NCBI RefSeq assembly: GCF_016900045.1
Contig: NZ_JACSNP010000004.1
Span: 62,001-126,000, forward strand
DNA length: 64,000 bases
Source: Fusobacterium mortiferum
Lineage (GTDB): Bacteria > Fusobacteriota > Fusobacteriia > Fusobacteriales > Fusobacteriaceae
Direction of reading: 5' to 3'
A program made the position numbers and the translations under genes. Shown piece after piece: positions 16,462 through 28,248 of the stretch. The first letter of the stretch is position 1, and every line of letters begins with the position of its first letter. The notes beneath the pieces are model-generated. The model ran no database searches, was not told where the DNA came from, and saw nothing but the letters and a program-made list of their open reading frames with translations.

Positions 16462-19203
16462 ATGGAAAAGAAATATGATAAATATGGTTATGATACGAAT
16501 GGATTTGATAAAAAAGGGATTCATAGACTTACAAAAACGAAATATGACTATTTTGGGTATGATGTTGATGGATTCAATATTAAAAAATTTAATAAAGATG
16601 GTATCCATAAAATAACTAAAACAAAATATGATGAAGAAGGATTTAATATTAAAGGGTATAATAAATATGGATTTGATAGAAAGGGAATACATAAAAGTAC
16701 TCATACTAAATATAATTTAGAAGGATTCGATATTGCTGGATATAATAAAAATGGATTCAATAAAGATAAACTTCATAAAGATACTCTCACAAAATATGAT
16801 TTAAACGGATTTAATTATGAAGGATATAATTCTAAAGGATACAACAAACGAGGATTTAATAAATTAGGATACCATTATCTAACTGAATCTAAATATGATG
16901 AAGAAGGATTTGATAAATATGGATACAATAAAGATGGATTTAATAGAAATGGTATTAATAAGTTTACCTTAACTAAATATGATACAGCTGGCTATGATAT
17001 TAATGGTATTGACAAACATGGAAAAACAAAAGGTGGAATAACTAATAAGAAAAAAGAAATTATTCTTCATAAAGAAAATAGCTTTAAAAATATAGAAAAA
17101 GAAAACTATGACCAAAAGAATATAGTTGAAATTACTCCTATAAGAAAAAAAGTTGTTATAGATAGATTTAAAGATATTGGAGAATTAAATTATTCATACC
17201 CTATTAACAAGAAAAATATTCTTTTTGCTTTAGAAGAGGAAGAACATATTAATAAAAGATTTTGTGAATACACTGTAACTAATATCGTACAGGAAAGTAT
17301 AGGACTCTATTCTGTTACCCTTACACAAAAAGAGGGAGAAGCACACCCTTTTAGTAGAAAAATACAGATAGATGAAGTCATGGAAGGAGGAAATATTTGG
17401 TGGGAAATCAATAACACTCCTGCTTATGCTGAAATTTTTCTAGTTTTTCCTGAAGAAGAGAAAATAGCTTTTAGATTTTTAAAAGGTCCAGCTCCAAGGG
17501 TAGGAACTGTTGTTAGAATATATTTACCAAATTACATAGAACCCCTTATTAAATGCTGGGAAAATAATTATTATGTAACTATGGTGAATACTTGGTTAAA
17601 AGATATAGAAAATTATACTCCAAATGTAACTGATTATAAAATAAATGGTTATTACAACAGTTGGCTTAGAGCTAATCAAAGAAAAGCTTTCAACCTTTTA
17701 AATATGAAGGCTGGTTTATTATGGGGTCCTCCTGGCACGGGAAAAACTACTACTATGAGTGCTATGATAGCTGAATATGTTGAGAGTAATCCACATGATA
17801 GTATTTTAATTGTAGGAAATACGAACTTGGCTGTTGATACTATATTTACAGGGTTTGATAAAATTTTAGATAAAGTTCCAAATAAAGATTTTATTAGAAA
17901 ATATTCAGTTAGGTATGGAGAAGCTTTTAACAGTAAAATGTATAAAGATAGAGAATATCTTCTCGCTAAAAATAATGATGAACATATTATGAGAGAACTT
18001 TTTATACTTGAGCAAGAAAAAGAAAAAATCCCTAATACTGATGTAGTAGCTTTAGCTAATTGGCAAGATAAATATGATAGATTAAAGAAACAATTAAAAT
18101 CAGCTTTAGAGAATGTAGTTCAAAATTATTCAGTTATTGCAATGACTTCTACTGTTGCTCTCTATAATTTTGAGCTATTACTAGACAATAAGTTTAACTT
18201 AGTAATTTTAGAAGAAGCTAGTCAAATAAATTTATGTCAAGCTCTTATGCTAACTCTTTTAGGAGAAAAAATAATATTTACAGGAGATGATAAACAACTA
18301 TCTCCAATTGTTCAAAGTAGTAATAAGGAAGCTCAAGAATATCTCGGTTATTCTATTTTTAAATATAAAACTTCCTATTTAAATGATAAAGTTTTTTTCC
18401 TAAATGAACAATCAAGAATGACAGAAAATATATGTAAAGTAGTTAGTCAAACATTTTATAATGGAGAATTAATTTTAGCCAAAAGTATTCCTAATCCTGA
18501 AAATTGGAAGAAAGAGAGAAAACTCAATAAAGATGATAAATTTAAGGGAAAAGATGTCATGGTAGTTGATATAGATGAAGATTCTAATTGGTCAAAACAA
18601 TATGGAGGAGCTATTAGATATGATTCTTGTTATGAAATAACAAAAATCTGTGAAAATCTAATAGACCACTATGATTCTAAACAAGAAGATATAAATATTT
18701 TAACTCCTTTTAGAGCTCAAAAAAATATGATTAAATCATTTTTAAAGAAAAGTCATTTACCTAGAATAAAAGTAAACACTATACATAAGAGTCAAGGTAG
18801 TGAATGTCATACAATTATTTTTGACCCTGTTGACGGAGAGAGTAAATTCTTAAGTACAAAAGAAGCTCAAAATATGATAAATGTCGCTATTAGTAGAGCC
18901 AAAGCAAGATTGATAGTATGTCTTAGTAAAAAAGATTACACTAATAAATCTCTTAATAAAATTGCTCATTTAATAGCACAACTCTCTGATACTACAAATA
19001 AAAATTTTGTTCCTCATATTAGTGAATTTATAAATAAGTCAGATTTTCCTAAAAATACTATTGGAAAAATTCTTGATTTTGAAAAATCTGGAATTTGTAA
19101 AGTTTTAAAATTTGATGAAAAGAGTATAACAGTTGCTATCCCTAATAAAGAAGCTATGACTAAAAAAATTTCTTTAGAGTTCTTATATAAAAAATATCTT
19201 TAA
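16462..19203 (+). CDS. UPF1-like SF1 helicase with N-terminal tandem-repeat array
   Basis: The C-terminal two thirds is an SF1B helicase of the UPF1/DNA2 type: Walker A GPPGTGKT 422-429, Walker B variant VILEEASQ, motif III FTGDDKQLSP, motif V NTIHKSQGSE and motif VI NVAISRAKARL. The first ~190 residues are six copies of a 28-residue unit (one of 33) built on a G(F/Y)(N/D)xx five-residue pattern and ending in KYD; see the repeat entry. Between residues 200 and 400 lies a unique region, perhaps the 1B-like or an OB domain. It starts at ATG 16462 behind GAGGGGG and is divergent from the restriction enzyme. Such helicases act in several defence systems and in RNA/DNA turnover; the target here is unknown. 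The repeats suggest a variable binding surface (inference). Confidence 0.8.
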   Translation: MEKKYDKYGYDTNGFDKKGIHRLTKTKYDYFGYDVDGFNIKKFNKDGIHKITKTKYDEEGFNIKGYNKYGFDRKGIHKSTHTKYNLEGFDIAGYNKNGFNKDKLHKDTLTKYDLNGFNYEGYNSKGYNKRGFNKLGYHYLTESKYDEEGFDKYGYNKDGFNRNGINKFTLTKYDTAGYDINGIDKHGKTKGGITNKKKEIILHKENSFKNIEKENYDQKNIVEITPIRKKVVIDRFKDIGELNYSYPINKKNILFALEEEEHINKRFCEYTVTNIVQESIGLYSVTLTQKEGEAHPFSRKIQIDEVMEGGNIWWEINNTPAYAEIFLVFPEEEKIAFRFLKGPAPRVGTVVRIYLPNYIEPLIKCWENNYYVTMVNTWLKDIENYTPNVTDYKINGYYNSWLRANQRKAFNLLNMKAGLLWGPPGTGKTTTMSAMIAEYVESNPHDSILIVGNTNLAVDTIFTGFDKILDKVPNKDFIRKYSVRYGEAFNSKMYKDREYLLAKNNDEHIMRELFILEQEKEKIPNTDVVALANWQDKYDRLKKQLKSALENVVQNYSVIAMTSTVALYNFELLLDNKFNLVILEEASQINLCQALMLTLLGEKIIFTGDDKQLSPIVQSSNKEAQEYLGYSIFKYKTSYLNDKVFFLNEQSRMTENICKVVSQTFYNGELILAKSIPNPENWKKERKLNKDDKFKGKDVMVVDIDEDSNWSKQYGGAIRYDSCYEITKICENLIDHYDSKQEDINILTPFRAQKNMIKSFLKKSHLPRIKVNTIHKSQGSECHTIIFDPVDGESKFLSTKEAQNMINVAISRAKARLIVCLSKKDYTNKSLNKIAHLIAQLSDTTNKNFVPHISEFINKSDFPKNTIGKILDFEKSGICKVLKFDEKSITVAIPNKEAMTKKISLEFLYKKYL
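16468..17025 (+). repeat. In-gene tandem repeat, 84-bp units (28 aa) encoding KYD-G(F/Y)(N/D) modules
   Basis: KYD/KYN triplets recur at residues 27, 55, 83, 111, 144 and 172 of the helicase, that is, steps of 28, 28, 28, 33 and 28 residues. Each unit reads roughly KYDxxGFDxxGYNxxGFNxxGIHxxT. The 33-residue unit holds one additional five-residue submodule, as expected if arrays grow or shrink by slippage or recombination. The DNA copies are similar but not identical. Confidence 0.85.
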
Positions 19204-20444: not shown

Positions 20445-21239
20445 ATGAGTAAAGGAGAATTAGCTCTAGAGAGCATTAGAACTACATATAGAAAGAAAAT
20501 TTGGAGTAAGTTTATAAAAGCTGTAAAGGATTTTGATTTAATAGAAGATGGAGATAGAATAGCCGTTGGAGTATCTGGTGGTAAGGATAGTCTTTTACTA
20601 TGTAAGCTATTCCAAGAATTAAAAAAGGATAGAAGTAAGAACTTTGAAGTTGCCTTTATATCTATGAATCCAGGGTTTGGTGCTATGGATATGGAGCAAT
20701 TCAAAAAAAATCTTGAAGAGTTAGATATCCCTTGTGAGATATTTGATGCTAACGTATGGGAGGTAGCATTTAGAGAGGATCCAGAGGGACCTTGTTTCCT
20801 ATGTGCTAAGATGAGAAGAGGTGTACTATACAACAAGGTAGAGGAGTTAGGTTACAATAAGTTAGCTCTTGGACACCACTTTGATGACGTAGTTGAAACT
20901 ACTATGATAAATATGTTCTATGCAGGAACTGTAAAAACAATGATACCAAAGGTTAGCTCAACAAGTGGAAAGATGTCAGTAATTAGACCTCTTGTATATA
21001 TCAAAGAGAAAGATATCATAGCATATACTCAAAGAAACGAGATATCACCTATGAGCTGTGGTTGTCCAATAGAAGCTGGAAAGGTTGATTCTAAGAGAAA
21101 GGAGATTAAAAATCTTCTAGCTGAATTGGAAAAAACTAATCCAAATGTAAAACAAAGTATATTCAACTCTATGAAAAATATAAATATAGATTATGTAATG
21201 GGATATACTAGAGGAAACAAGGTAAAAGGTGAGATGTAA
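20445..21239 (+). CDS. TtcA-like PP-loop ATPase, copy 1 (tRNA 2-thiolation family)
   Basis: N-type ATP pyrophosphatase of the TtcA/CTU1 group, whose members activate a tRNA base with ATP and exchange oxygen for sulfur (cytidine-32 in TtcA). The PP-loop VGVSGGKDS lies near residues 44-52, the CxxC pair in PCFLCAKMRRG near 116-122, and LGHHFDDVVETT follows. A further Cys pair, MSCGC, near residue 205 stands where TtcA-like proteins supply additional ligands for a 4Fe-4S cluster. At 264 residues it is shorter than E. coli TtcA (311). The ATG at 20445 follows AGGAGG closely. It is head-to-tail with a second copy; only one base separates stop and start. Whether each copy modifies a different tRNA position is unknown. 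Confidence 0.85.
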   Translation: MSKGELALESIRTTYRKKIWSKFIKAVKDFDLIEDGDRIAVGVSGGKDSLLLCKLFQELKKDRSKNFEVAFISMNPGFGAMDMEQFKKNLEELDIPCEIFDANVWEVAFREDPEGPCFLCAKMRRGVLYNKVEELGYNKLALGHHFDDVVETTMINMFYAGTVKTMIPKVSSTSGKMSVIRPLVYIKEKDIIAYTQRNEISPMSCGCPIEAGKVDSKRKEIKNLLAELEKTNPNVKQSIFNSMKNINIDYVMGYTRGNKVKGEM

Positions 21240-21240
21240 G

Positions 21241-21996
21241 ATGGAAAAGGAAAAGAGTAACTCTATCTTAAAAAATATTGAGGGAAAAGGATTTGGAAAA
21301 ACTATATGGAGCCCAATAGGGAGAGCTATGCACAAGTACAATATGGTGGAACCTGGAGATAGAATAGCTGTTGGGGTATCTGGTGGTAAAGATAGTATGA
21401 CAACTCTAAACGCCCTTGTTAGAGTAAAGAAGATAGCACAAATTGATTTTGATATCATTCCTATACATATACACCCTAACACTGATAAAGCTTCATATGA
21501 GAAGATAGAAAAATATTGTGAAAGCTTAGGATTAAAATTACAAGTTGAGCCTACTAACCTTAGTGAGATGCTATTTGGAGAGAAAGAGGTAAAAAATCCT
21601 TGCTTCCTATGTGGAAGAATAAGAAGGGGGATACTATACAGAATGATGAAGGAGCAAAATATAAATAAGCTTGCTCTTGGACATCATAAAGATGATATTA
21701 TAGAGACTTTCCTTATGAATGTATTCTATCAAGGAAATATGAAAATGATGAAACCTAGCTATGTATCTGAAGAGTATGGAGTAAGGGTAATCAGACCTCT
21801 TGCCTATGTTGAGGAGAGTGACATCATCAGATATGTAAAAAAACAGGAGTTACCTGTGGTAGCCTCAGATTGTCCATACGAGACTAGTGAGAACTCTAAG
21901 AGACTTAGAGTAAAAAATCTTATCAAAGAGTTGTCTACTGAAAACAAAGATGTTAGAAGTGTTGTTTTCAATAGTATTAAAGAGTTACTAGATTAA
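21241..21996 (+). CDS. TtcA-like PP-loop ATPase, copy 2
   Basis: A 251-residue paralogue of the upstream gene. It has VGVSGGKDS near residue 43, PCFLCGRIRRG with the CxxC pair, and LGHHKDDIIETF. The start is ATG 21241, with the ribosome site AGGTGAG (21227-21233) inside the last codons of copy 1, so the two are translationally linked. Copy 2 has a single Cys (SDCPYE) where copy 1 has MSCGC, so the set of possible Fe-S ligands differs between the two. This suggests that they are not simple duplicates but may form a heteromer or act on different substrates (inference). Confidence 0.83.
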   Translation: MEKEKSNSILKNIEGKGFGKTIWSPIGRAMHKYNMVEPGDRIAVGVSGGKDSMTTLNALVRVKKIAQIDFDIIPIHIHPNTDKASYEKIEKYCESLGLKLQVEPTNLSEMLFGEKEVKNPCFLCGRIRRGILYRMMKEQNINKLALGHHKDDIIETFLMNVFYQGNMKMMKPSYVSEEYGVRVIRPLAYVEESDIIRYVKKQELPVVASDCPYETSENSKRLRVKNLIKELSTENKDVRSVVFNSIKELLD

Positions 21997-22955: not shown

Positions 22956-25445
22956 ATGAAATTTATATATGATAGAAATAAGACAGCTGTCATTTTTGGA
23001 GAGAAGGAGTATAGTTACAAAGAGATTATCAGAGGTATAAAGTACTACTCTACTCTTCTGAAGGAAGCTGGAAAAGTGGTTGTAACTATGGAGAATAGAC
23101 CAGAGATGATATGTTCTATCTTCTCTATCTGGAATAGTGAACAAACTGCTGTTGTTTTAGATTCTGGGTATACTGGAGAACAGTTTGCTTACGCTTTTTC
23201 TGATTCAGAGCCTAGATATATTTTCACATCTAAAAAAGTTGTGGAAAGAGTAAAAGAGGGAATTGAGTTATCTAAAAAAAATATAGAGATAATAGTAATA
23301 GATGATATCTCTATCCCAGAAGATTTTACACCTGATAACTATGAGGTAGTTATTGAAGATTTAGAAAGAGTTGCTCTTCTACTATATACTTCTGGAACTA
23401 CTGGTAATCCAAAGGGAGTTATGCTTACATTTAATAACTTAGAATCAAATATAAAGGCTGTAAGAGAGATTGATCTTGTAAATGATAGTGATAGAGTTTT
23501 AGCAATTCTACCTTATCACCACATTTTACCTCTTAATCTAACAATGTTGATGCCTATGTATTTTGGAACATTCCTAGTAATACTTGAGGAGTTATCTTCA
23601 GAGGCTTTAAAAACAGCTCTAAAAAAACACAGAATAAGTGTTATAATTGGAGTTCCTAGAGTTTGGGAGATGTTACATAAGGCTATTATGGGTAAAATCA
23701 ACAGTAGTTCTCTAACTAAGAAAATTTTTAATATATGTAAGAAGATTGATAATCTAACATTGAGTAAGAAGGTATTTAAAAAGGTATCTGATGAGCTTGG
23801 TGGATGTATGAGAGTAGTTGTTTCTGGTGGGGCAAAACTTGACCCAGAAATTTCCGCTGACTTTAAAGCTTTAGGACTTCCTATCATTGAGGGGTATGGA
23901 CTTACTGAAACATCTCCTATAATTGCTTTTAATCGTCCTAATAACAATGTTCTTGGTTCGGCTGGACAACTTATCCCAGATGTTGAAGTTAAGATTGCCC
24001 AAGATGAGGAGATATTAGTTAGAGGAGCCAATGTAATGAAGGGGTATTACAACAACCCTAAGGCAACTGCAGAGGCTATAGATAGTGATGGTTGGTTCCA
24101 CACTGGAGACCTTGGAAAATTTGAGGGAGACTCTCTATTTATAATAGGAAGAAAAAAGGAGATGATAGTTTTATCAAATGGTAAAAATATCAACCCTGGA
24201 GATATTGAATCAGCTATTCTAAAGGAGACAGATTTAATAAAAGAGATAGCTGTAATGGAGTATAACAACCATTTAATGGCTGTAGTTTATCCTGATTTTG
24301 ACCTTATCAAAAGAAGAAAAATAGCTAATATCAAAGAGACTTTAAAGTGGGAAATCATTGATAAGTACAATGTGACAGCTCCTAAGTATAGAAAAATATT
24401 GGAGATAAAAATTGTAAAAGATGAGCTTCCTAAAACTAAGCTTGGTAAGATTAGAAGATTTATGTTAGCAGACTTCTTAAAAAAGGCTGATGAAGAGGTT
24501 AAAGATAGCTCTCAATTAAAGAAAGAACCTGTTGCTATTCCTCAAGATTTACTGTCTGAGTATGAAACTCTGAAAAAATATTTAGAATCTACTTTTAACG
24601 TTGAAGTAGAGCCAGATCTTCATCTAGAGTTAGATTTAGGTTTAGATTCACTAGATATTGTAGAGATTCTATCATTTATTGAAACAAGTTTTGGAGTAAA
24701 AATTAGTGAGGAACAGTTTAGTAATTTAAAAAATATCTTAGATATAGCTAAATATATAAAGGACAATGGAGGAGAGTATCATCAAGAGAACTTAGATTGG
24801 AAGAGCATTCTTAACCAAGATATAGATGTACCACTTCCTAAATCAAGTTTCATGATTGGATTTACAAGATTACTATTCAAACCTATATTTATGTTGTATT
24901 TCCGTCTACGTAAACTAGATACTGATAAGATACCTGAATCTCCTGCTATATATGTAGGTAACCATCAAAGTTTCCTAGATGCTTTTATCTTCAATCAGGC
25001 TATGCCTAGTTCAAAGTTAAAAGATACTTACTTCATAGCTGTAGCTGTACACTTTGATACACCACTTAGAAGATATCTTGCAGATAGAGGAAATATTATT
25101 ATCATTGATATCAACAAGAACTTAAAAGAGACACTTCAAATCTCTGCTAAAGTTTTAAAAGAGGGTAAAAATCTAGTGATATTCCCAGAGGGAGCAAGAA
25201 CTAGAGATGGAGAGTTACAAGAGTTTAAAAAGACATTTGCTATACTTTCTAAGGAGTTAAATATTCCAGTTGTACCTTTTGGTATCAGAGGAGCTTATGA
25301 AGCTATGCCATATGGAAGTAGTTTCCCTAAGGCTACTCCTATTGATATTAAGTTCTTTGATGAGATAGAGCCAGAAGAGTTAACTATAGATGAGATAGTT
25401 AAGGATACTAAAAAAGAGATACATGATTGGCTATCAGAGGAGTAA
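22956..25445 (+). CDS. Acyl-ACP synthetase / ACP / PlsC acyltransferase fusion, copy 1
   Basis: An 829-residue three-part enzyme. Residues 1 to about 510 form an ANL adenylating domain: LLYTSGTTGNPKGVML (P-loop), GYGLTETSP, GWFHTGDLG and a late KTKLGKIRR lysine motif. Residues ~535-610 are a built-in acyl carrier domain with DLGLDSLDIVE, in which Ser565 should carry phosphopantetheine. Residues ~640-829 are a PlsC acyltransferase: NHQSFLDAF with HX4D at 670-675, then FPEGARTRDG. Predicted action: activate a fatty acid with ATP, load it on the fused carrier and pass it to a glycerophospholipid acceptor, in the manner of Aas but with its own ACP. No strong membrane segment except a weak one before PlsC. 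A paralogue lies just downstream. Confidence 0.87.
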   Translation: MKFIYDRNKTAVIFGEKEYSYKEIIRGIKYYSTLLKEAGKVVVTMENRPEMICSIFSIWNSEQTAVVLDSGYTGEQFAYAFSDSEPRYIFTSKKVVERVKEGIELSKKNIEIIVIDDISIPEDFTPDNYEVVIEDLERVALLLYTSGTTGNPKGVMLTFNNLESNIKAVREIDLVNDSDRVLAILPYHHILPLNLTMLMPMYFGTFLVILEELSSEALKTALKKHRISVIIGVPRVWEMLHKAIMGKINSSSLTKKIFNICKKIDNLTLSKKVFKKVSDELGGCMRVVVSGGAKLDPEISADFKALGLPIIEGYGLTETSPIIAFNRPNNNVLGSAGQLIPDVEVKIAQDEEILVRGANVMKGYYNNPKATAEAIDSDGWFHTGDLGKFEGDSLFIIGRKKEMIVLSNGKNINPGDIESAILKETDLIKEIAVMEYNNHLMAVVYPDFDLIKRRKIANIKETLKWEIIDKYNVTAPKYRKILEIKIVKDELPKTKLGKIRRFMLADFLKKADEEVKDSSQLKKEPVAIPQDLLSEYETLKKYLESTFNVEVEPDLHLELDLGLDSLDIVEILSFIETSFGVKISEEQFSNLKNILDIAKYIKDNGGEYHQENLDWKSILNQDIDVPLPKSSFMIGFTRLLFKPIFMLYFRLRKLDTDKIPESPAIYVGNHQSFLDAFIFNQAMPSSKLKDTYFIAVAVHFDTPLRRYLADRGNIIIIDINKNLKETLQISAKVLKEGKNLVIFPEGARTRDGELQEFKKTFAILSKELNIPVVPFGIRGAYEAMPYGSSFPKATPIDIKFFDEIEPEELTIDEIVKDTKKEIHDWLSEE

Positions 25446-25446
25446 A

Positions 25447-25758
25447 ATGAATATTATAATAGAAGATAAAGTGTTAAACTATATTTTGGAGAAGAACTAT
25501 GAAGGACTTCTCCTAAAGACTAGAAATCAATCCTTTGGTTGAGCGGGTTGTAAAAGAGTAATTCTAGTTGAATTTATAAAAGAGTATTCTAAAATAATAG
25601 AAAATAGATTCAGTTGTAAAACTTATAAGGTTGATGGAATAAAAGTGCTTATTCCATATGAACTGGATTTAGAAGGTGTAATAGAGTTAAGAATATCAGA
25701 AGTATTCAGTAGTTTTAGCAAAGAGATGCTTTTAATTGTTGAAACTACAGATATATAA
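25447..25758 (+). CDS. Putative selenoprotein with UxxC motif (in-frame TGA), 103 codons
   Basis: The ATG at 25447 follows AGAGGAG and lies one base after the preceding stop. Codon 32 is TGA (25540-25542); the frame then stays open for 71 more codons to TAA 25756-25758, next to the following gene's ribosome site. Reading TGA as selenocysteine gives SFGUAGCKR, a canonical UxxC redox motif. After the TGA there is no early ATG/GTG/TTG with a ribosome site that would explain separate translation. Size and strand pattern vaguely recall HesB/IscA-like proteins (GLLLKTR strand, later VDGIKVLIPYEL), some of which are known selenoproteins; this family guess is weak. A Cys codon mutated to TGA (pseudogene) is the main alternative. 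Selenocysteine machinery is not in this window. Confidence 0.62.
25560..25574 (+). promoter_or_regulatory. Candidate bacterial SECIS hairpin downstream of the TGA
   Basis: AATTC (25560-25564) and GAATT (25570-25574) form a 5-bp stem with loop TAGTT, starting 17 bases after the TGA. Bacterial SECIS elements have a short stem-loop about 16-37 bases after UGA with a G in the apical loop. Distance and loop G fit, but the stem is short and A/T-rich. Confidence 0.35.
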
Positions 25759-25779
25759 TTGTCTATTGAGGGGGATAAA

Positions 25780-28248
25780 TTGAACTTTGTAAAAGATTAT
25801 AATAAAACTGCTATTATCTATGATAATAAAAATATAAGCTATAGAGAGATTATTGAAAAGAGTAAGTATTTCTCTACTTTTTTTGATATTCAATCTCAAG
25901 ATAAGGTTATCATCTTTATGGAGAATAGACCTGAATTACTTTATAGCTTCTTAGGTATCTGGGATAAAAGAGGAACTTGTGTCTGTTTAGATGCTAGTTT
26001 CAGTGGAGAAGAGTTAGTTTACTATGTAAATGACTCTGATGCTAAGTTCATCTATACTTCTAAAGAGTGTTTTAAAAGTGTAGAGGAAGCTTTAGCTTTA
26101 ACTGGAAAACAGGATAGTATCTCAGTTATTGTTGTAGATGATATAGTTGTGGAAAAAATTGAGATTCAAGAGTATCTATTAAAAGCTCCAGAGAGAGAGG
26201 ATATAGCTCTTATGCTATATACATCAGGAACTACTGGTAATCCAAAGGGAGTTATGCTAAAATTTGATAATATTCTTGTAAATATTGAGGGACTTGATAA
26301 ATACAAGATGTTTATTTCAGAGGATATTGTTTTAGCTTTACTACCTATGCACCATATATTCCCACTTTTAGGAGCTGGAGTTGTACCTCTTGCTAAGGGG
26401 GCTACTATTGTATTCCTAAAGGAGTTATCATCTCAAGCTATGGTAGATGCTTTTAAAACTCACAAAGTTACTATGATGATTGGTGTTCCTAGACTTTGGG
26501 AGATGTTACATAAGAAAATTATGGAAAAAATCAACAGTAGTAAAGTGACTAAGACAATTTTTAAAATAGCTCAAAAAATTGATAGTATATCTATAAGAAA
26601 GAAAATATTTAAGAAAGTACATGATGGATTTGGAGGAAATGTTAGATTTTTCGTATCTGGAGGTTCTAAACTAGACTCTCAAATTTCAAAGGATTTCCTA
26701 ACTCTTGGAATACAGGTTTGTGAAGGTTATGGAATGACAGAAACATCTCCTATGATCTCCTTTACTCCTATAAATGAGATAGTTCCTGGTTCTGCTGGAA
26801 AAATACTTCCAGGTGTAGAGGTTAAAATCTCTGATGACGGAGAGATTCTTGCTAGAGGTAGAAACGTTATGGCTGGGTACTATAAAAGAGATGATGCTAC
26901 AGCTGAGGCTATAGATAGTGAAGGATGGCTTCATACTGGAGACCTTGGAGAGTTAAAAGATGGATATCTGTATGTTACTGGACGTAAAAAAGAGATGATA
27001 GTTCTTTCTAATGGAAAGAATATCAACCCTATTGAGATAGAACAATGGATAATGGCTCATACAGATCTTATACAGGAGATGGCAATAGCTGAGATAGACT
27101 CTGTTCTTACTGCTATTGTATACCCAAATTTCCAAAAAATAGTTGAAGAGAAAATAACTAATATAAAAGAGACTCTTAAATGGGGAGTTATTGATAAATA
27201 TAATGGTAAAGCTCCTAACTATAGAAAAATTTTAGATATTAGAATTGTTCAAGAGGAGTTACCTAAAACTAAACTTGGTAAGGTTAGAAGATTTATGTTA
27301 GAGTCTATTCTTAATAAGAAAGAAGAGGAGAACATAAAAATAGAGGAACCTGATTTTCAAGAGTATTTTGAATTAAAAGAATACCTAGAAAAGATGAAGA
27401 ATAAAAAGATAACTCCTATGGCTCATCTTGAACTTGACTTAGGACTTGATTCTCTTGATATGGTTGAACTACTTACATATCTTGAGACAACTTTCGGAAT
27501 TAAGGGAGAAGAGAGTGTCATAGTAAATAACCCTACAGTTGAGAAATTAGCTAAATATATTCAGGAGAATAGAGGAGAGGGAAAATTTGAGGAGATAAAT
27601 TGGAAAGAGTATCTAACTCAAGAAAAAAATCTAACTCTACCTCATTCTAGCATGGCTATTCATTTTATAAAAGCTCTACTTTGGTTACCTTTTAAAACTT
27701 ATATCAGAGTTAAAGAGCAAGGGATAGAAAATATTCCTACAAACAGACCTGTTATCTTTGCTGGAAACCATCAAAGTTTCCTTGATGCTCTTATTTTTGG
27801 ACATGCTACTCCATTTAAAATTTTGGTTAACTCTTACTCACTTGCCAAGATAAAACACTTCAACAAGTGGTATATGAAATTTTTAGCTAACCATTCCAAT
27901 GTTGTTTTAGTAGATATTAATAACAATCTTGGAGAGGTACTACAAACAATGGCTAAGGTTTTAAAAGAGGGAAAAAATGTAGTAATATTCCCAGAGGGAG
28001 CAAGAACTAGAGATGGAAAGATGTTAGAATTTAAAAAATCTTTTGCCATCTTAGCAAAGGAGCTTGAAGTTGATATCATACCATTTGGTATTAGAGGGGC
28101 TTTTGAAGCTTTCCCTTCATCTTCAAAATTCCCGAAACCATCTCAAGTTGAAATTAAATATTTTGAGCCTATATCTTCTAAGGATAAATCATATGAGGAT
28201 ATAGTAAAAGAAACAAGAGATACAATTTTAAAATGGGTAGGTAAATAA
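25780..28248 (+). CDS. Acyl-ACP synthetase / ACP / PlsC acyltransferase fusion, copy 2
   Basis: An 822-residue paralogue of the gene at 22956, with the same order: ANL domain (LMLYTSGTTGNPKGVML, GYGMTETSP, GWLHTGDLG), carrier domain with Ser558 in DLGLDSLDMVE, and PlsC domain with HX4D at 664-669 (NHQSFLDAL) and FPEGARTRDG. I choose TTG 25780 as start, since GAGGGGG (25768-25774) sits six bases before it and the resulting start (MNFVKDYNKTA) lines up with copy 1 (MKFIYDRNKTA). The copies have drifted clearly, most around the carrier domain and the PlsC entry, which suggests different acyl or acceptor preference. The stop lies inside the terminator hairpin that closes the operon. Confidence 0.86.
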   Translation: MNFVKDYNKTAIIYDNKNISYREIIEKSKYFSTFFDIQSQDKVIIFMENRPELLYSFLGIWDKRGTCVCLDASFSGEELVYYVNDSDAKFIYTSKECFKSVEEALALTGKQDSISVIVVDDIVVEKIEIQEYLLKAPEREDIALMLYTSGTTGNPKGVMLKFDNILVNIEGLDKYKMFISEDIVLALLPMHHIFPLLGAGVVPLAKGATIVFLKELSSQAMVDAFKTHKVTMMIGVPRLWEMLHKKIMEKINSSKVTKTIFKIAQKIDSISIRKKIFKKVHDGFGGNVRFFVSGGSKLDSQISKDFLTLGIQVCEGYGMTETSPMISFTPINEIVPGSAGKILPGVEVKISDDGEILARGRNVMAGYYKRDDATAEAIDSEGWLHTGDLGELKDGYLYVTGRKKEMIVLSNGKNINPIEIEQWIMAHTDLIQEMAIAEIDSVLTAIVYPNFQKIVEEKITNIKETLKWGVIDKYNGKAPNYRKILDIRIVQEELPKTKLGKVRRFMLESILNKKEEENIKIEEPDFQEYFELKEYLEKMKNKKITPMAHLELDLGLDSLDMVELLTYLETTFGIKGEESVIVNNPTVEKLAKYIQENRGEGKFEEINWKEYLTQEKNLTLPHSSMAIHFIKALLWLPFKTYIRVKEQGIENIPTNRPVIFAGNHQSFLDALIFGHATPFKILVNSYSLAKIKHFNKWYMKFLANHSNVVLVDINNNLGEVLQTMAKVLKEGKNVVIFPEGARTRDGKMLEFKKSFAILAKELEVDIIPFGIRGAFEAFPSSSKFPKPSQVEIKYFEPISSKDKSYEDIVKETRDTILKWVGK

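Follow-up and report, generated by a model that had tools for sequence, protein, structure and literature searches.

A probable selenoprotein subfamily with a predicted IscA/HesB-like fold in Fusobacteriaceae

We analyzed a 64,000-nucleotide stretch of a Fusobacterium mortiferum genome (contig NZ_JACSNP010000004.1, positions 62,001 to 126,000; hereafter the window) and found a gene, interrupted by a single in-frame TGA, whose product is in all likelihood a selenoprotein with an IscA/HesB-type fold. Taken separately, the selenoprotein reading, which comes from sequence comparison, is close to certain, and the fold, which comes from a structure model, is highly probable. With its relatives the gene very probably makes up a selenoprotein subfamily that is maintained by selection and shares this IscA/HesB-like fold, as judged from sequence and model together. 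The subfamily adds to the known selenoproteins; routine gene calling would truncate it at the UGA, no NCBIfam model reaches its cut-off on it, and no Pfam match to it is convincing. The literature that we searched, mostly short of full texts, held no description of it under this form. The features of the locus are listed in Table 1.

Table 1. Coordinates of the proposed selenoprotein gene, its elements and its neighbours in the window.
Feature	Position	Strand	Basis
Proposed selenoprotein CDS, 103 aa, selenocysteine (Sec) as residue 32	25447..25758	+	Frame, relatives, dN/dS
Ribosome-binding-like sequence AGAGGAG ahead of ATG 25447	25436..25442	+	Direct reading
TGA codon, proposed Sec32	25540..25542	+	TGA in 17/17 UAG-subfamily sequences; column of IscA Cys35
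TGT codon, Cys35, proposed partner of Sec32 (U-A-G-C)	25549..25551	+	Cys at +3/-2/+1 in 28/28 TGA copies
SECIS-like hairpin 1, stem AATTC/GAATT, loop TAGTT, G at 25567	25560..25574	+	Conservation, covariation, RNAalifold
Hairpin 2, GGAATAAAAGTGCTTATTCC, 7 pairs in the window, 8 in 15 relatives, ~100 bases 3' of the TGA	25636..25655	+	
Upstream AMP-binding / phosphopantetheine / acyltransferase fusion	22956..25445	+	Pfam
Downstream AMP-binding / phosphopantetheine / acyltransferase fusion	25759..28248	+	Pfam

An earlier note on this DNA had described a 103-codon frame broken only by a TGA at codon 32 and set tightly between two acyl-ligase fusions. When we re-read 25447-25758 we obtained the same frame, with one internal TGA and the read-through sequence F-G-U-A-G-C, and Pfam identified both neighbours as fusions. 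The spacing was as tight as described: the frame of the upstream ligase ends at 25445, which leaves a 1-base gap before the ATG at 25447, and the downstream ligase frame opens at 25759, directly after the stop of the gene. The likelier start of that downstream ligase is TTG 25780, which lies behind GAGGGGG.

The mechanism that we propose is that the SelA, SelB, SelD and tRNA-Sec encoded in the same genome would decode UGA codon 32 as selenocysteine. The earlier note had asked for selA, selB, selC and selD and had named a lack of such machinery as an argument against the gene; SelA, SelB, SelD and tRNA-Sec were all found. In the genome of the window (2.04 Mb in 283 contigs), tRNA-Sec scored 69.1 bits against a cut-off of 47 and SelB scored 330.8 bits, and SelD, SelA, SelB, YedF and a Se/S-carrier-like gene lie on one contig in one run that ends at tRNA-Sec. 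SelD itself has an in-frame TGA, reads SIGGUASKIG and is followed after the TGA by a predicted hairpin; the SelD genes read in three relatives also run through a TGA. Since SelD reads through its TGA, UGA recoding would already be needed in this genome, and the SelD codon appears to serve as an internal positive control for it. A plain ORF list places the start of this SelD downstream of its TGA (L088:9077, contig C111). We found no glycine-reductase B (GrdB) in the genome of the window, and its sole formate-dehydrogenase-like match had no in-frame stop. With the proposed gene, Sec use in these Fusobacteriaceae would extend beyond SelD. In a related genome, G019, roughly 5 kb separate the end of the sel run from the selenoprotein gene downstream of it. 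The run in G019 (L124 with L070) consists of selD, selA, selB, yedF, the Se/S-carrier gene and selC, and is followed directly by two PP-loop genes, a regulator, a ligase and the selenoprotein gene. Its selA appears as two separate frames, of 360 and 84 aa; in L125 selA is intact.

We searched for relatives with the protein and with a profile. The protein search matched 25 of 98 genomes of the phylum, and in 22 of them the aligned frame held a single TGA; the remaining three matches, with TAG or TAA, were rejected as chance, their frames being cytidine-deaminase-like by eye. The profile search matched 31 of 389 genomes, to which the phylum contributes at most 98; all 31 belonged to the family of the window and none lay outside it, 27 carrying a TGA copy and four carrying stop-free copies only. 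With a same-species genome from the protein search, this brought the TGA copies to 28 Fusobacteriaceae genomes, all of which were read. All 28 fall among the 50 genomes, out of the 98 from the phylum, in which tRNA-Sec exceeded its cut-off (a raw count, with relatedness unweighted), and in 22 of these 50 we found no TGA copy. Neither profile nor protein matched in 29 of the 61 Fusobacteriaceae genomes. Within the window's genus the gene is missing only from G024, a 71% complete genome in which tRNA-Sec likewise did not pass its cut-off. Among the GTDB 220 contigs a single locus was found, in a MAG labelled Fusobacterium sp.; the patterns used there had been back-translated with Cys, so TGA sites were reachable only through the other pattern. 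The plasmids searched gave no match and the viral contigs searched no relative.

The relatives fell into three subfamilies, reading U-A/V-G-C or U-A-G-P (the UAG subfamily, to which the window belongs), U-C-A/S-G (UCAG) and S-K-U-C-P (SKUCP), and protein identity to the window among the TGA copies went down to 20%. By hhalign, the U-C/C-C group is homologous to the UAGC core group (96.9%, E 1.9e-10). We noted that Cys stands at +3, -2 or +1 of Sec in all 28 TGA copies and that no other Cys is common to the family. A site of the IscA fold in which Sec is fixed and the partner cysteine moves in this way bears on how such sites work. The earlier note had asked what stands at residue 32 in fusobacterial homologues and had regarded Cys in all of them, with the TGA missing from close strains, as pointing to a nonsense mutation. 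TGA stands there in the 28 genomes, and Cys was found at this place in L064, a stop-free sister-subfamily copy that reads S-K-C-C-P, against S-K-U-C-P in three genomes of the same genus; the L064 genome is 82% complete and is without tRNA-Sec over cut-off. Stop-free copies reading G-C-S-C came from two genomes that are also without tRNA-Sec over cut-off, and one reading G-C-C came from G043, a genome with tRNA-Sec. G041 and G042 have stop-free matches to the NCBIfam model NF041239, yet tRNA-Sec is present in both. Inside the UAG subfamily we found no Cys homologue; the Cys pairs are with sister subfamilies.

The plainest alternative is that the TGA is a true stop that leaves a 31-aa peptide from a nonsense-mutated or truncated gene. 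By translation table 11 the frame does end at codon 32, and TGA also closes ordinary frames elsewhere in these genomes, L063 being one case. If the part after the TGA were dead, its dN/dS would be expected to approach 1. When the window was compared with L016, its nearest distinct relative (69% identity), dN/dS was 0.09 over the 31 codons before the TGA and 0.23 over the 69 codons after it. The value after the TGA was below 1 in 9/9 pairs, ranging from 0.08 to 0.57 in the eight further pairs, where the three highest (0.45, 0.57 and 0.51) came from one close group; it exceeded the value before the TGA in 6/7 pairs for which both halves could be computed, which would fit a true stop. Because dN/dS stayed below 1 yet was mostly above the value before the TGA, the sequence after the TGA is constrained by purifying selection, though less tightly than the first 31 codons. 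Relaxed selection downstream, which the earlier note had listed as evidence against the gene, was not borne out in the sense of neutrality, although the constraint was weaker than before the TGA in 6/7 pairs. The same TGA in 28 genomes at identities down to 20%, together with dN/dS below 1 in every pair and the conservation of hairpin 1 described below, makes a true stop so improbable that we rejected a nonsense mutation despite the higher values after the TGA. With the machinery, the 28 genomes and the constraint in hand, the claim that this is a real gene for a UxxC selenoprotein appears sound.

The short stem-loop that had been noticed in the window, 17 bases after the TGA and with a G in its loop, was confirmed (hairpin 1). 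Taken alone, the hairpin of the window is predicted to be weak, with an energy between -1.2 and -1.7 kcal/mol, and was matched by 1062/5000 synonymous resamplings drawn with pooled codon usage, which is within chance. In the UAG subfamily, on the other hand, the five pairs were kept in 17/17 distinct sequences (null mean 3.44, maximum 10, n=5000 resamplings), so the significance of hairpin 1 appears only across relatives, where 0/5000 resamplings were as high; the resampling treats the sequences as independent and the figure is thus not a strict probability. The UCAG group kept 32/35 pairs, again with 0/5000 resamplings as high, and in the two SKUCP sequences the hairpin was no better than chance (1534/5000). 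Over 26 sequences from the three subfamilies, 96.2% of the hairpin-1 cells were paired and 13 cells had changed on both sides, which was beyond all 500 shuffles, and the covariation score was reached by 0/500 shuffles. Two of the five covariation measures were within chance, namely pairs with two-sided change (2/5) and further pair types (4), which were matched by 382 and 360 of 500 shuffles. RNAalifold recovered hairpin 1 unprompted. Its energy was -0.6 to -1.2 kcal/mol in the UAG group and -2.2 to -4.6 kcal/mol in the UCAG and SKUCP groups. The bacterial SECIS (bSECIS) model, as set out in PMC13188914, has a spacing of 16-37 nt, a loop of 3-9 nt, an upper stem of at least 4 bp, a G within the first two loop places and a minimum free energy of -7.5 kcal/mol or lower. 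Hairpin 1 of the window fits this model in spacing (22 nt), stem and loop size and departs from it in two respects, a G that comes third among the five loop bases and an energy above -7.5 kcal/mol. The comparison across relatives nevertheless strongly indicates that this short hairpin would guide the recoding.

We detected a second conserved hairpin inside the coding sequence (hairpin 2). Codons 64-70 read GGR ATA AAA GTG TTT ATY CC in most UAG-subfamily sequences, and the same codons recur in L016-L026 and L028-L031. Eight pairs were formed in 15/17 sequences of the subfamily (null mean 2.63, maximum 8, n=5000). The loop holds a rare and near-invariant GTG, present in 16/17 sequences although GTG makes up 9% of Val codons in pooled usage. 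Covariation was modest: three sequences had a both-side change at one pair, and the paired share and the covariation score were matched by 26 and 13 of 500 shuffles, respectively. RNAalifold on this stretch returned hairpins 1 and 2 and nothing else, and Rfam gave only weak, chance-level matches on the segment. Hairpin 2 is absent from the UCAG and SKUCP subfamilies; it is thus present where hairpin 1 is weakest and absent where hairpin 1 is somewhat stronger, and a shared role of the two is a conjecture. With AGUG as its loop, hairpin 2 obeys the rule for SECIS loops, but it stands about 100 bases from the TGA. We considered whether it is a general SECIS or repeat and rejected this: of 29 pattern matches with up to 2 mismatches in 24/61 genomes, 17 were in the selenoprotein gene (0-1 mismatch) and the 12 elsewhere all had 2 mismatches, with 4 matches for a reversed control pattern. 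In the genome of the window the pattern occurs once, in the selenoprotein gene. By this distribution of matches, hairpin 2 is specific to the gene. It is possible that hairpin 2 acts as an internal start or as a message-stability element. An internal start at the GTG would be in line with the GG-rich sequence about 6 bases before it; speaking against such a start, L027, the sole sequence that has lost the stem (five pairs, no predicted fold), has also lost the GTG. With hairpin 2, control by RNA in addition to the usual SECIS becomes open to test, and if it is a true distal element it would lie outside the published bSECIS model (PMC13188914).

The earlier note had likened the protein to the HesB/IscA family, and the structure model (pLDDT 85.5) agreed with this. 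Foldseek returned two matches under E 0.001, SufA (1.9e-4) and IscA (2.1e-4), followed by other IscA-like or Fe-S-biosynthesis entries. VIA gave Z 8.1 to IscA over 90 residues, a Z of about 8 being middling by the tool's own note. The best ten VIA rows (Z 4.9-8.1) were IscA (three), SufA, DsrR, a YneR complex model, two putative Fe-S biosynthesis proteins, AQ_1857 and HI1723, the last two of which we take to be HesB-family proteins; the best row outside the IscA-like group had Z 3.9. In an alignment of 13 sequences that included E. coli IscA, SufA and ErpA, Sec32 was the sole invariant column and aligned with IscA Cys35, and the C-terminal CGC tail was absent. The ligands of A-type carriers are three cysteines, Cys35 and those of the C-terminal CGC. 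Kinship to IscA by sequence was weak (hhalign probability 12.3%, E 0.0024), and we rejected it as a sequence-level assignment, the hhalign values against the three E. coli carriers being only 12.3% and 1.6%.

Comparison with known families gave partial likenesses. The window protein matched no NCBIfam or Pfam model, sequence searches of the PDB returned nothing relevant, and PHROGs gave nothing convincing. We also scanned A1, an alignment of 21 family members including the window protein. NF041239, the "CC/Se motif family (seleno)protein" (Moor_selen_rel), matched 17/21 members when E values up to 10 were admitted, the best being 4.5e-9. Its cut-off of 40 bits was not reached, the highest member scoring 36.3, the window protein giving no match and 0/98 genomes lying over it. 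The likeness to NF041239 lies in these sub-cut-off matches and in sister subfamilies that carry U-C or C-C; it differs in that its motif is CxxU (PMC13188914), whereas the partner Cys of the window protein is at +3 (UAGC). The HesB-like selenoprotein TIGR01911 has a UxGP motif according to the same source, and relative L025 reads U-A-G-P, but none of the 21 A1 members matched TIGR01911 at E up to 10 with HMMER filters on. In Methanococcus maripaludis, mutagenesis and 75Se labelling identified a HesB-like selenoprotein whose function is described as not clear (PMC11097638). The hypothetical protein DG (NF049953) has a GUxG motif (PMC13188914), the same G-U-x-G form as in the window protein, a likeness of motif alone; no match was reported among the 21 A1 members, NF049953 itself possibly being outside the model release searched. 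For this protein the deep-Sep report gives a Desulfosediminicola source with Cys homologues (PMC12013277). IscA, SufA and ErpA (PF01521) resemble the window protein in the model fold and in a G-[C/U]-[S/A]-G site and differ from it in the CGC tail that the window protein lacks. PF01521 matched 1/21 A1 members at E 0.11, and three SKUCP sister genes gave E 5.2e-4 to 3.1e-3, below cut-off.

By the model and the alignment, the product would be of the IscA/HesB-type fold; Sec would occupy the position of the first IscA cysteine, a partner Cys would follow at +3, and the CGC would be lacking. Sec32 and Cys35 may form a selenenylsulfide redox pair, or alternatively a two-ligand metal or persulfide site, and electrons or metal or sulfur would be passed to partner proteins, rather than an Fe-S cluster being held at the canonical three-cysteine carrier site. 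We slightly favour thiol/selenol redox activity over Fe-S or sulfur transfer. A role in Fe-S, iron or sulfur transfer, with Sec as a ligand and the protein replacing A-type carriers that the lineage lacks, is possible though rather less probable. It would suit the IscA/SufA fold and the position of Sec in the column of IscA Cys35. PF01521 was over cut-off in 0/61 Fusobacteriaceae against 9/14 control genomes, which agrees with the absence of A-type carriers in Fusobacteria reported for one genome (PMC2682760). The missing CGC ligands speak against such transfer, as does the lack of an isc or suf gene among the identified subset of neighbours; with no match in 29/61 family genomes the role would not be universal. 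A more elaborate version we consider improbable. In it the Sec protein takes over from A-type carriers, its ligands being one selenium and one sulfur, and Sec insertion or dosage is set by two hairpins, a weak one at the usual SECIS place and a stronger, distal one that binds SelB or is autoregulatory. The redox reading remains the one that we prefer.

The earlier note had also proposed a joint action of the gene with the lipid-acylation genes that flank it. In lipid metabolism such a protein might be a specific partner of the acyl-ligase/ACP/acyltransferase fusions, for instance one that keeps a thiol or thioester reduced. At least one fusion does adjoin the gene directly on the same strand, at a gap of 1-156 bases (1 base upstream in the window), in 11/11 gene-bearing genomes of the window's genus; 5 of these have fusions on both sides and 6 on one side. 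In a second genus, however, no fusion was found in the 12-14 kb read in 7/7 genomes (one stretch reaching only 1.5 kb on one side), and the neighbours differ, with an F420-ligase-domain gene in four genomes (domain scanned on one). In a third genus the fusion lies one gene away on the opposite strand in the 3 examined of 7 genomes. Given 11/11, 0/7 and other-strand placement across the three genera, the fusion neighbourhood is a habit of one genus and not a rule of the family. The proposed partnership thus did not hold as a general rule, direct fusion neighbours being confined to one genus, and we regard a lipid role as unlikely.

Several further observations were made on the neighbourhood. 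In G027 (L073), which is counted among the genomes with a fusion on one side, both fusions appear broken into two frames each and the selenoprotein gene is intact; the split could be a sequencing error or decay. The F420-0:glutamate-ligase-domain protein (~397 aa, PF01996 scanned on the L077 copy) adjoins the gene in two genera (L077, L079, L081 and L082; L072-L076). Two adjacent PP-loop (TtcA-like) genes at 20445-21996, upstream of the regulator and the ligase, are conserved in several relatives. Farther upstream, 16462-19203 encodes a 913-aa protein that begins with a tandem peptide repeat (KYDxxGFxxxGYNKxGF-like) and continues, by eye, with a helicase-type part.
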